Position numbers and translations under genes: made by a program. The notes below the pieces were generated by a model that saw nothing but the letters and a program-made list of their open reading frames with translations, was not told the origin of the DNA and made no database searches. A stretch of 63,167 bases of DNA, taken from assembly GCF_002608075.1 (NCBI RefSeq), contig NZ_LAHA01000007.1:10972-74138 (forward strand), read 5' to 3'. Below, piece after piece: positions 44,761 to 47,506 of the stretch (positions within the stretch are counted from its first letter, which is position 1; each line of letters opens with the position of its first letter). The DNA comes from Nostoc linckia z4. GTDB lineage: Bacteria > Cyanobacteriota > Cyanobacteriia > Cyanobacteriales > Nostocaceae.

Positions 44761-45633
44761 TCAAGCAGCGCAAACAAAAGGGGCAGACTTAGAACCCGCC
44801 CCTTTTGGTTGTGATATGCTGCGCCCAACGGCTGTTGCTATGAGCTTTAAACTATTAACTAAATCCACCATATCTTGTAAAGAAAGTGCTTGACGGGCGT
44901 CAGAAACAGATTTTTCTGGTTCTGGGTGACATTCAATTATTAACCCATCTGCACCGCAAGCGATCGCAGCTCTAGCTACCGGCGCTACTAATTCCCGTTT
45001 ACCTACGGCATGGGAAGGATCTACAATCACAGGCAGGTGAGTTATTTGTTTGAGTGCTGCTACTGCACCTAAATCTAGAACGTTGCGGGTGTAATCATCG
45101 AAGCTGCGGATACCCCTTTCACACAACACCACATCAGGATTCCCATGACTGAGAATATATTCAGCAGCCATCACGAATTCTTCAATTGTCGCTGCTAAAC
45201 CACGCTTGAGCAGTATGGGTTTGCCAGCTTGCCCTAAAGCTTTGAGCAAATCGAAGTTTTGCATATTGCGGCTACCAACTTGCAGCATATCAGCGTAAGC
45301 CGCCACAGATTCAATTTGGGAAATTGACATCACCTCAGTGACAACTGGCATATTGTACTGCGATCGCACCCCCGCCAAAATTTCCAATCCTTGCTCCCCC
45401 ATACCTTGGAAAGCGTAGGGAGATGTCCGGGGTTTGTAGACACCACCACGCAAAGCTTGTACCGATGCAGTAGATAGCTTTTGGGCTACTGTCTCCATTT
45501 GTTCCCAGCTTTCAACCGTACAAGGGCCACCGATAATTACCAATTCCTCACCACCGAAAGCAACTTTTTCTGAAAGTTTAACGATTGTCTGATGGTTGGG
45601 ATGAGATTGTGCAGCCAGTTTAGCGTTAATCAT
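44761..45633 (-). CDS. aroF: 3-deoxy-7-phosphoheptulonate (DAHP) synthase, AroF/type I-beta
   Basis: 290 residues. It joins PEP and erythrose-4-phosphate as the first step of the shikimate pathway to Phe, Tyr and Trp. Seen: IIGGPCTVESWEQM (metal-binding Cys), LRGGVYKPRTSPYAFQG, GSRNMQNFDLLK, LKRGLAATIEEFVMAAEYI, CERGIRSF, PVIVDPSHAVGKRELV and IIECHPEPEKSVSD; all active-site motifs are present. There is no N-terminal ferredoxin-like/ACT domain and no chorismate-mutase fusion, so allosteric end-product control may be absent. That fits control in the leader, where an aromatic-rich leader peptide and attenuator lie upstream (45822-45947). ATG at 45633 with an AGGAG Shine-Dalgarno 8 bp ahead. Confidence 0.95.
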   Translation of the reverse strand: MINAKLAAQSHPNHQTIVKLSEKVAFGGEELVIIGGPCTVESWEQMETVAQKLSTASVQALRGGVYKPRTSPYAFQGMGEQGLEILAGVRSQYNMPVVTEVMSISQIESVAAYADMLQVGSRNMQNFDLLKALGQAGKPILLKRGLAATIEEFVMAAEYILSHGNPDVVLCERGIRSFDDYTRNVLDLGAVAALKQITHLPVIVDPSHAVGKRELVAPVARAAIACGADGLIIECHPEPEKSVSDARQALSLQDMVDLVNSLKLIATAVGRSISQPKGAGSKSAPFVCAA

Positions 45634-45677
45634 GGTTTAATTCTCCTAAGAAATTGAGTATTTGGAATTGAAAGTGT

Positions 45678-45819
45678 TGACCGTTGACTGTTGACTGTTG
45701 ACCGTTGACTGTTGACTGTTGACTGTTTAGCAAGGAGTCAAGAATTATTCTTTCCATGCCCAATGCCCAATGCCCAATGCCCAATGCCCAATGCCCCATG
45801 CCCCATGCCCCATGCCCTA
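45678..45819. repeat. short tandem repeats in the aroF leader
   Basis: GTTGACTGTTGACC units (45678-45727) and CCAATGC/CCCATGC units (45757-45819) lie between the attenuator and the aroF start codon, so they form part of the 5' untranslated RNA. Confidence 0.8.
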
Positions 45820-45821
45820 AT

Positions 45822-45893
45822 AAAAAAACCCAGAACCTTGGAAAGTTCCGGGCGCGTTGTGCTTTATCGGCATTACGCTATTTACCCGGAACT
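45822..45893 (-). promoter_or_regulatory. transcription attenuator of aroF (antiterminator/terminator pair)
   Basis: On the minus strand: segment 2, AGTTCCGGG (45893-45885), overlaps the last leader codons; segment 3, CCCGGAACT (45852-45844), is its perfect complement; segment 4, GGTTCTGGG (45837-45829), pairs with segment 3 with one G-U pair; seven U (45828-45822) follow at once. 2:3 and 3:4 are mutually exclusive. A ribosome stalled on aromatic codons leaves 2 free to trap 3, giving read-through. A ribosome at the stop codon (45884-45882) covers 2, so 3:4 forms and transcription stops. This is classical amino-acid attenuation logic read from the sequence; not tested. Confidence 0.82.
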
Positions 45894-45947
45894 GACTCTG
45901 GGCCAAAAGTAAAAGCCGTAAAACCAACTACTGAAATAACTCGTCAC
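45882..45947 (-). CDS. aromatic leader peptide of aroF
   Basis: 21 codons from GTG, with a strong AAGGAG Shine-Dalgarno nine bases upstream. Residues 4-15 read YFSSWFYGFYFW: nine of the 21 residues are Phe (4), Tyr (3) or Trp (2), the three end products of the pathway that aroF starts. The final codons, AGT TCC GGG, form the antiterminator strand, and the TAA stop is just past it. Too short and too biased for a functional protein; its job should be ribosome sensing of charged aromatic tRNAs. Confidence 0.8.
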   Translation of the reverse strand: MTSYFSSWFYGFYFWPRVSSG

Positions 45948-45960
45948 AATGAAATTCTCC

Positions 45961-46050
45961 TTAAAAAACAAAAACCGCAGAGTTCGCTCTGCGGTTCACC
46001 GGGGGGTTTCCATGTGGAAACTTAATTCACCGCCGGTGAACCACCCTAAA
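45961..46050 (-). ncRNA. structured RNA with intrinsic terminator, upstream of the aroF leader peptide
   Basis: Minus strand: GGTTCACCGG (46042-46033) pairs with CCGGTGAACC (46002-45993), enclosing a GTTTCC-ACAT-GGAAAC hairpin. The left strand can instead fold on itself (TTCACCG/CGGTGAA, 46026-46040). Next comes AACCGCAGAG-CGAA-CTCTGCGGTT (45996-45973) followed by TTTGTTTTTT, a strong terminator whose U run touches the leader peptide's Shine-Dalgarno. Either an independent small RNA (a Yfr2-like RNA is one guess, unverified) with read-through into aroF, or a second switch in the aroF leader. Confidence 0.6.
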
Positions 46051-46798
46051 CCAGAAATAAAAATAGGAATTTGTGTTAAACATTGGCGAGGCGTTTTAGC
46101 TGGAAAATTTAACTAAACTAGATAAATCTATGTATAGTAACATTAACAAAAGGAATTAGTGTTGTCAAGACCCCCACAACAGCTAAAAAAGCGATAAACT
46201 CAGTACAACTGGGGGAATCAAGACTATAAGCATTTCTTCATGAAATGCTTGGTGTAGGTTGCTTTTTGTAGAGGAGTCACCAAAATTCACTCATCAAGCT
46301 TGTTCTGATGCCTATGACAAGTCGTCTTTTGCGCGTCTAGGCTCAAAAGTGGCGCATCGTACCTGAAATGAGTTTTCAGATTTTTCTTTGAATTTAGACG
46401 CTTACATTTTAAGCTTTTTTATCCTCAATTTCCCAGAATTTGTATCATGAAGTTTTCGTTGATTGTTTGCCTAGAAGAAGAAAGTGGCTTGCCATACGAC
46501 GTTGTGATAGTTATATAACTTTACAAGTATTGGTATGTCATAACTAAATAAATAGTGTAAATAATCAAAAATCAATGAAAAAACTTGAAAAGTCCAGATG
46601 AATAGATACAGCAAATTTACAGTGGCATAGCCTTTCAAAAATTGGGAAAGCTACGATTCCAAAATCAAAACATCTAATTTTCCTGACTTTTGTTTTTACC
46701 TTGCGAAAGCTAATTACAGACAATTGAGAAATGGCATACATTATTCTTTCCCAAGTCTTTATTCAGCAGATCAACTTTTTAGAATCAACAGTTTCATT
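46051..46798. other. intergenic between aroF leader and Zn-ribbon membrane protein
   Basis: No gene recognised. Contains a hairpin AAGCATTTC-TTCAT-GAAATGCTT (46228-46250) of unknown role; promoters for the aroF leader (minus) and the 46799 gene (plus) must lie here. Confidence 0.4.
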
Positions 46799-47293
46799 AT
46801 GCCCAGTCCCAAAATCTTAGCCAAATCTTTTGACTATCATGGAGTTTACCCCTGCCCAGTCTGTCGGATAGGTAAGATTTCTCACATGCCATTGATGGAA
46901 GCGATGGCTTGTGACTTTTGCCAAGAGATTTTTACGGTGAATCTAGAACTACAGCAAATCAAGATGCCTTCTAGGCAACCACCCTTGGTTTGGCGTTGGA
47001 ATGGCTTTAGTTGGACAGAAGCCCAGTTAGAAGGGGTGGAATTGGGTTGGGGTTATGGACTAGCTGCTATAGCTTTTGTAGTCCTTCCTACTACTCTCAT
47101 TGGCATAGTAGCTTATTATTTTCCTCCTAATATCAACGAGCCGATTACGTGGATGCCATATATTTGGACAATATTAACTTTCCTGTCACATTTATCAATT
47201 ATTGTTTGGATTTTTATTGAAGTTTATCAAATTCCAGTTGCTGCATATTTGAGAGCGATCGCTCGATGGAGAAATGGGGAGATGGGGAGATGA
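46799..47293 (+). CDS. membrane protein with N-terminal zinc ribbon, unknown function
   Basis: About 164 residues. A Zn-ribbon-like N-terminus has two CxxC pairs (CPVC and CDFC, about 19-46); a Trp-rich link (PPLVWRWNGFSWTEAQLEGVELGWGYG) follows; then two or three membrane helices (about 90-112 and 122-150). The frame is open from ATG at 46724, but Met at 46799 starts right before the conserved-looking MPSPKILAKSFDYHG. The last residues (RWRNGEMGR) are coded by the first units of a GATGGGGA tandem repeat, so the natural C-terminus may have been altered by repeat expansion. No family named. Confidence 0.65.
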   Translation: MPSPKILAKSFDYHGVYPCPVCRIGKISHMPLMEAMACDFCQEIFTVNLELQQIKMPSRQPPLVWRWNGFSWTEAQLEGVELGWGYGLAAIAFVVLPTTLIGIVAYYFPPNINEPITWMPYIWTILTFLSHLSIIVWIFIEVYQIPVAAYLRAIARWRNGEMGR

Positions 47294-47440
47294 GGGGGAT
47301 GGGGAGATGGGGGGATGGGGAGACTTGTACTGAGCGGAGCCGAAGTATGGGGGAGACGCGGGGACGCGGGGACTCGGAGAATAACCAATCCCCATGCCCC
47401 ATGCCCCATGCTCCATGCCCAATGCCCAATGCCCAAATAA
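47268..47440. repeat. short tandem repeats GATGGGGA, GACGCGGG and CCATGCC
   Basis: Three kinds of 7-9-bp degenerate repeats in a row. The first overlaps the 3' end of the preceding gene; the last resembles that in the aroF leader. Confidence 0.75.
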
Positions 47441-47506
47441 TAAAACATGCAGCCGATAGACCGCTGCATAACTCATAATTAAGTTGATTGTGTACCAAAA
47501 TGACGT

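Follow-up and report, generated by a model that had tools for sequence, protein, structure and literature searches.

The short DAHP synthase gene (aroF) of Nostoc linckia z4 is very probably controlled by two ribosome-mediated transcription attenuators in series, which, judging from sequence and a folding model, would sense charged Phe, Tyr and Trp tRNA. The DNA analyzed was a stretch of 63,167 nucleotides, referred to below as the window. An earlier note had described a complete aromatic attenuator upstream of aroF. Its positions for the AAGGAG sequence, the GTG start at 45947, the 21 codons with nine for Phe, Tyr or Trp, the stop codon, the three pairing strands and the T7 run were all exact, and this leader with its strands and hairpin is real. 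However, it is only the second half of a tandem, and the upstream leader (46083-46027) had been overlooked, together with its antiterminator, its terminator and a promoter-like sequence. The reading of the region as attenuation is itself supported by the results below.

Organization of the aroF leader region

The minus strand was inspected over 46300-45400, where the following features were found.

46163..46168, minus strand: predicted -35 box TTGACA, from the sequence and a conserved pattern
46140..46145, minus strand: predicted -10 box TAATGT, with a 17-base spacer to the -35 box (promoter span 46168-46140)
46027..46083, minus strand: leader ORF 1, MFNTNSYFYFWFRVVHRR and stop; 7 of 18 codons aromatic; in 77/77 testable related loci
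46033..46044, minus strand: element 1 strand 1, GTGGTTCACCGG, in leader 1 codons 14-17; partner at 46002-45991
46006..46021, minus strand: small hairpin GTTTCC-ACAT-GGAAAC within the antiterminator 1 loop, from the fold
45991..46002, minus strand: element 1 strand 2, CCGGTGAACCGC, common to antiterminator 1 and terminator 1
45963..45997, minus strand: terminator 1, GAACCGCAGAG-CGAA-CTCTGCGGTTT, with U tract TTTTTGTTTTTT at 45974-45963
45957..45962, minus strand: Shine-Dalgarno-like AAGGAG of leader 2, immediately 3' of terminator 1
45882..45947, minus strand: leader ORF 2, MTSYFSSWFYGFYFWPRVSSG and stop; GTG start, TAA at 45884-45882; 9 of 21 codons aromatic; in 77/77 testable related loci
45884..45893, minus strand: element 2 strand 1, AGTTCCGGGT, the last three codons and first stop base; contains AGTTCCGGG at 45893-45885
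45844..45853, minus strand: element 2 strand 2, GCCCGGAACT, common to antiterminator 2 and terminator 2; contains CCCGGAACT at 45852-45844
45822..45837, minus strand: element 2 strand 3, GGTTCTGGG at 45837-45829, and T7 at 45828-45822; 3' side of terminator 2
44761..45633, minus strand: aroF, DAHP synthase of 290 aa without the N-terminal ferredoxin-like regulatory domain

The order from 5' to 3' is thus promoter, leader 1, terminator 1, AAGGAG, leader 2, terminator 2, repeats and aroF. Inspection of the window sequence revealed no clear Shine-Dalgarno sequence for leader 1. The small hairpin at 46006..46021 is well kept among near relatives and is not kept in more distant ones.

Both elements carry features expected of an attenuator. 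The leader ORFs are short and hold clustered codons for the amino acids that the pathway produces, and a terminator-like hairpin with a U tract lies before the gene in each element. Sequence and folding model together also indicated a mutually exclusive antiterminator, whose 5' strand would lie under a ribosome at the stop codon. Each element has three conserved strands, without a separate conserved protector strand, and in the window the antiterminator duplex overlaps 7/11 terminator pairs at element 1 and 10/11 at element 2.

Across both strands of the 63 kb window, seven small ORFs (8-40 codons) had at least 7 aromatic codons making up at least 35% of the frame. A terminator-like hairpin followed within 130 bases in two of these seven, and these two were leaders 1 and 2. 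Two aromatic-rich leaders, each with its hairpin, are beyond chance in a window of this size.

No Rfam family, including the amino acid leaders (Trp, Phe and others), matched the window at its gathering score, and the covariance models of the T-box and the Rfam riboswitch families were likewise unmatched there. Three weak Rfam matches in 45600-46750 (E up to 5; microRNA, rnk_pseudo and lncRNA) were rejected, being of unrelated kinds and far under the cut-offs. We also considered whether hairpin 1 (45997-45963) is the terminator of a neighboring gene. This was rejected because the next sizeable upstream ORF is divergent (46724, plus strand) and because the hairpin accompanies leader 1 and aroF even in distant relatives.

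Short tandem heptamer-like repeats (gggcatg/gggcatt, aacagtc) lie between terminator 2 and aroF (window 45633-45822), and similar repeats were also seen upstream, at about 47195-47476. The length of the spacer between leader 2 and aroF differs widely among relatives.

Conservation and distribution of the two elements

A regular-expression search for a second cluster of aromatic codons covered 80 related aroF loci. Leader 1 was found in 71/80 of these loci and in the window; six of the nine misses carry Leu in the motif, and the other three (L014, L036 and L047) have no more than 102 bases of upstream sequence. Leader 2 was found in 76/80 and is also present in L031, the remaining three being the same loci with too little sequence. 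Therefore, both leaders accompany all 77 related aroF genes with enough upstream sequence, as well as that of the window. The laboratory strains Chlorogloeopsis fritschii PCC 6912 (L073) and Nostoc punctiforme NIES-2108 (L034) are among those with the pair. The distance between the leaders (VHR motif to WFY motif) was 116-129 bases in 74/78 sequences and 172-334 bases in the other four. The promoter pattern TTGACN-N16-18-TANNNT preceded leader 1 in 95/97 loci, compared with 1.3% of shuffled upstream regions; it was absent at L062, where 47 bases were available, and at L080.

DAHP synthases were then surveyed in 80 genomes, nearly one per genus. The short enzyme was found in 21/80 (one copy, in genome G382, is interrupted), and a longer paralogue of about 50% identity was found in most genomes. 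Comparison of the regions upstream of 20 short and 20 long genes revealed at least one aromatic leader in 20/20 short-gene regions and both leaders in 17/20. As for the exceptions, L118 has kept the second aromatic frame and the strands and has lost the stop, L131 has leader 1 only, and L132 has leader 2 only, with a shifted end; in L125, which was counted as having both, leader 1 stops early. No leader-like ORF was seen upstream of the long paralogues (0/20), as judged by eye from the three small ORFs richest in aromatic codons in every region.

The leader frames, whose conservation in other aroF loci the earlier note had proposed to check, were kept with aromatic-for-aromatic and third-position changes. 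In the seven aromatic columns of leader 2, minor letters occurred 0 times at first, 16 times at second and 39 times at third codon positions (29 distinct rows); this count took only the rows fitting a peptide pattern (85/96, 29 distinct), so aromatic identity was partly selected for. The corresponding count for leader 1 was set aside owing to poor alignment (26/97 rows). Leader 2 peptides such as SWFYGFYFWPR are highly similar among close relatives, and in distant relatives Phe, Tyr and Trp swap for one another and other residues change too. The third-position changes and these swaps suggest that any aromatic tRNA would serve to read the leaders, and speak against an arrest peptide of fixed sequence. 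As a separate observation, GTGA around the usual TGA stop of leader 1 was invariant in 43/43 rows of alignment A3; this is so even though the motif lies where the paired strand ends or beyond, and though a few loci have an earlier stop upstream of it.

Pairing was counted on alignments A3 and A4, in which relatedness inflates the covariation counts. Antiterminator 1 was paired in 92.7% of 559 cells, with both sides changed in 20 cells (shuffled mean 3.9), and terminator 1 in 96.0% of 428 cells, with both sides changed in 6 cells (shuffled mean 1.7) at 3 pairs. The values were 91.7% of 420 cells and 11 changed cells (shuffled mean 2.6) for antiterminator 2, and 96.2% of 420 cells and 21 changed cells (shuffled mean 5.5), at 5 pairs, for terminator 2. 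Sliding the partner by 1-3 columns lowered pairing to 13-65%. In this check, which the earlier note had proposed, pairing is thus kept among relatives, with changes on both sides. The number of double-change pairs was not above shuffles for antiterminator 1 (44/500) or antiterminator 2 (132/500), nor was the number of pair types for terminator 1 (42/500) or antiterminator 2 (455/500), so antiterminator 2 has the least covariation support.

The duplex of strands 1 and 2 was stronger than that formed by shuffled strand 1 (at most 1/100 as strong) in 94/97 loci for element 1 and 86/95 for element 2. It was at chance level at L125 element 1 (85/100 as strong) and weak relative to shuffles at element 2 of L068 (35/100) and L072 (15/100). 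The median antiterminator duplex energy was -28.2 kcal/mol for element 1, compared with -18.4 kcal/mol for element 2.

To describe the distribution, covariance models R1 (element 1, from 43 sequences) and R2 (element 2, from 42) were built and 338 genomes of the class were scanned, under the stricter filters that apply to large scans and with a short-aroF threshold of E <=1e-100. The short aroF was present in 126/338 genomes, 15 of which had also supplied sequences to the models. R1 lay just upstream of it in 122/126 and R2 in at least 103/126 (matches down to E about 2e-4); both were found in at least 99/126, R1 alone in at most 23, R2 alone in 4 and neither in 0. Of the strong R1 matches (E <=1e-5), 121/126 stood 63-370 bases upstream of aroF. 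For four others (G455, G563, G469 and G415) the contig stops, on the side of the gene, within about 830 bases, which leaves no room for a whole aroF; the last, in G030, adjoins an aroF remnant. Strong matches occurred in several families of the window's order and also, outside that order, in ten further families of the class. The system thus extends further than the window's order. The element was absent from 204/338 genomes at E 0.01, in line with the absence of the short aroF from 212/338. R1 was found in 0/18 genomes of the other class of the phylum, where an empty result from this search shows little.

Ten of the R1-only genomes were fetched. Six of them have a divergent second leader (L198-L203), and in the other four (L204-L207, family f49) a second leader was absent. 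Among the four R2-only genomes, a leader 1 candidate was found in L208 and L209 and none in L210, and L211 is at a contig edge. No leader 2 was found in 5/5 fetched loci of family f49 (L204-L207 and L217). Leader 1 seems to have been retained in this family, whereas leader 2 was either lost or never present, and the family offers a natural single-attenuator comparison.

In the window's own genome, each element gave one strong match, at aroF, and the next best matches had E values of 0.0099 (element 2) and 0.29 (element 1). Five weak-match loci scanned in this genome held no leader resembling leaders 1 or 2. One weak match (L154) was rejected as a plain hairpin and T run between unrelated genes, with a modestly aromatic frame (5/18 codons) on the opposite strand; another (L162) has a modestly aromatic frame of 32 codons. 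A leader-2 pattern search of 386 genomes matched 36 genomes, and of 30 loci scanned, 22 were beside aroF and 8 elsewhere. The reversed pattern also gave single matches in several genomes, so the matches away from aroF are attributed to chance.

Predicted switching and rival explanations

In the proposed mechanism, a ribosome finishing a leader would cover strand 1 and leave strand 2 free for the terminator, so that transcription would end there. If instead the ribosome stalls at an aromatic codon, strand 1 would remain free to pair with strand 2, and the polymerase would read on. Full-length aroF mRNA would need read-through at terminators 1 and 2, and the gene would be on when charged aromatic tRNAs are scarce. 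Translation of the leaders, stalling, termination and the response to amino acids are what we infer from the sequence features and their conservation.

Switching was assessed by equilibrium folding with a ribosome mask, which ignores co-transcriptional order, and a locus was counted as switching when the stem base probability was below 0.5 in the stalled state and above 0.8 in the released state. By this measure, element 2 switched in 52/95 loci and element 1 in 18/97. With the ribosome at any of the seven aromatic codons W8-W15 of leader 2 in the window, the terminator pair probabilities were 0-0.02, and with the ribosome at the stop they were at least 0.92 for 10/11 pairs. For leader 1, Phe10 in the A site lowered the five outer terminator 1 pairs to 0-0.39, and Trp11 or Phe12 in the A site left the terminator 1 G-C core intact. 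In the model, therefore, leader 2 of the window switches cleanly and leader 1 in part. The partial opening at Phe10, with an intact core at Trp11 and Phe12, suggests that leader 1 would report Phe and Tyr rather than Trp.

The idea that untranslated RNA would read through was dropped, because the terminators form without translation in the model. Untranslated RNA was mostly in the terminator form (medians 0.74 and 0.90), with a terminator probability of at least 0.5 in 83/97 loci for element 1 and 68/95 for element 2. During transcription the antiterminator should be favored, because strand 1 would meet strand 2 before strand 3 is made.

These folding results bear on the possibility that only leader 2 is regulatory and that element 1 is a constitutive or weakly regulated terminator, which would lower basal expression or release a short leader RNA. 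The clean switch of leader 2 in the window, the partial one of leader 1, and the 18/97 loci in which element 1 switches by our criterion speak for this. However, leader 1 is at least as widely kept as leader 2 (R1 in 122/126, R2 in at least 103/126), antiterminator 1 covaries and is the stronger duplex of the two by median energy, and the model leaves out the co-transcriptional order, which brings strands 1 and 2 together before strand 3 has been made. We therefore regard a role for leader 2 only as unlikely.

Two further rivals appear less probable still. The leaders might encode arrest peptides, whose nascent chain in the ribosome tunnel would itself detect a ligand such as a free aromatic amino acid, and not tRNA charging; the great likeness of the leader 2 peptides in close relatives would fit this, but distant relatives swap Phe, Tyr and Trp and vary at other residues, which codon sensing fits better, and we consider arrest peptides very improbable. 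An equally slim chance is given to the prematurely ended leader RNA, or the leader peptide, acting in trans as a small RNA or micropeptide, with cis attenuation secondary. An RNA running from the predicted promoter to terminator 1 would measure about 170 nt, and excerpts of PMC7298713 report that the Sinorhizobium leader peptide peTrpL acts in trans. Nevertheless, the elements remain beside the short aroF (121/126 strong element 1 matches, the other five being near contig ends or at an aroF remnant), and the antiterminator strand is conserved, although a free small RNA would not need it. Two tRNA-sensing attenuators in series remain the preferred reading.

Known systems and the short DAHP synthase

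The aroR leader of aroF in Corynebacterium glutamicum was reportedly described by Neshat et al. in 2014. According to excerpts of PMC11802643 and PMC4046766, aroR is likewise an aromatic-codon leader peptide before a DAHP synthase gene, at which stalling raises transcription; it is a single leader with Phe-Tyr-Phe, and Tyr availability is reported to be without effect. Compared with aroR, taken by its description only, the locus studied here is cyanobacterial, has two serial leaders whose 7 and 9 aromatic codons include Trp, and precedes an enzyme without the ferredoxin-like domain. The E. coli trp attenuator has a four-strand design, whereas each element here has three conserved strands, the two elements stand in tandem, and no Rfam family matched. 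The E. coli pheL/pheA, pheST and trpL/trp systems share with the present one a codon-rich leader, a choice between terminator and antiterminator, and a cognate gene (PMC11802643, in part). Unlike in these attenuators, untranslated RNA here still mostly forms the terminator in the equilibrium model. The mgtM/mgtP leader of Salmonella mgtCBR also has two short ORFs in one leader and one transcript, but one of these responds to ATP and the other to proline, and the genes have no part in amino acid biosynthesis (excerpts of PMC3641672). In contrast, both leaders here are aromatic, and an intrinsic-terminator-like hairpin belongs to each.

The earlier note knew of no aromatic attenuation in cyanobacteria, and an excerpt of a 2016 paper (PMC4833913) states that reliable data on cyanobacterial attenuation are lacking. 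Among the literature matches listed for cyanobacteria with leader peptide or attenuation, none was a cyanobacterial amino acid attenuator; subscription papers and preprints lay outside this scope. Within the available excerpts, PMC2965389 reports that some Gammaproteobacteria have a tandem terminator in their rimP leader and mentions neither cyanobacter nor Nostoc, PMC1262725 covers Actinobacteria and does not name aroF or DAHP, and PMC8632094 describes a cysS leader motif in Rhodobacterales. Similarly, the excerpt of PMC7693272 gives C. fritschii PCC 6912 three DAHP synthase homologues with different light responses and does not report attenuation, and that of PMC10875765 suggests no stepping up of the pathway in Synechocystis when Phe is low. 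The mechanism is already known; what appears new is the tandem design and its occurrence in cyanobacteria.

Profile matches identify the product of 44761-45633 as a DAHP synthase (Pfam DAHP_synth_1; NCBIfam TIGR01361 and PRK08673), and a genome scan placed the nearest named relatives of the gene in Nostoc (96% identity). The earlier note saw no obvious regulatory domain in this enzyme, and profile and structure matches agreed that the ferredoxin-like domain is missing. The short protein aligns to PRK08673 from profile position 69 only and to DAHP synthase structure 1rzm, which we take to be from T. maritima, from residue 74 only. PF18152, the ferredoxin-like domain, is present in the long paralogue of the window's genome and had no match in the short DAHP synthase of the window. 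In the T. maritima enzyme, this domain mediates feedback by Tyr and Phe. By analogy, the short enzyme, which lacks it, is probably insensitive to feedback and regulated by attenuation instead.

Taken across the class, we moderately favor a double attenuator in which two serial aromatic sensors, leader 1 mainly for Phe and Tyr and leader 2 for all three, would both have to be relieved for the cell to make the DAHP synthase that lacks the domain and is probably blind to feedback. Since the long paralogue has the regulatory domain and the short gene the double attenuator, shikimate control would be split between allostery and tRNA charging. If true, attenuation would be shown in cyanobacteria. 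Oxygenic phototrophs would thereby have their first demonstrated case of leader-peptide attenuation, and no earlier tandem would have had both leaders tuned to the pathway's own end products. It would imply tight transcription-translation coupling at the aroF locus, offer a ready read-out of Phe, Tyr and Trp tRNA charging in phototrophs, and explain what restrains a DAHP synthase that has no feedback domain. The elements could also serve as a ready-made control part for aromatic compound production in cyanobacteria.

In genome G382, of the same family, the short aroF is split by an insert of about 5.8 kb (L213, C1:3950200-3957900), and both leaders are upstream of the interrupted gene (L089). 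At one end the insert carries a 425 aa recombinase of the phage integrase family (PF00589), and both of its junctions show a 16-base direct repeat. Excision elements are known from heterocyst-forming cyanobacteria, and the insert resembles these, but it sits in a gene of the aromatic pathway.
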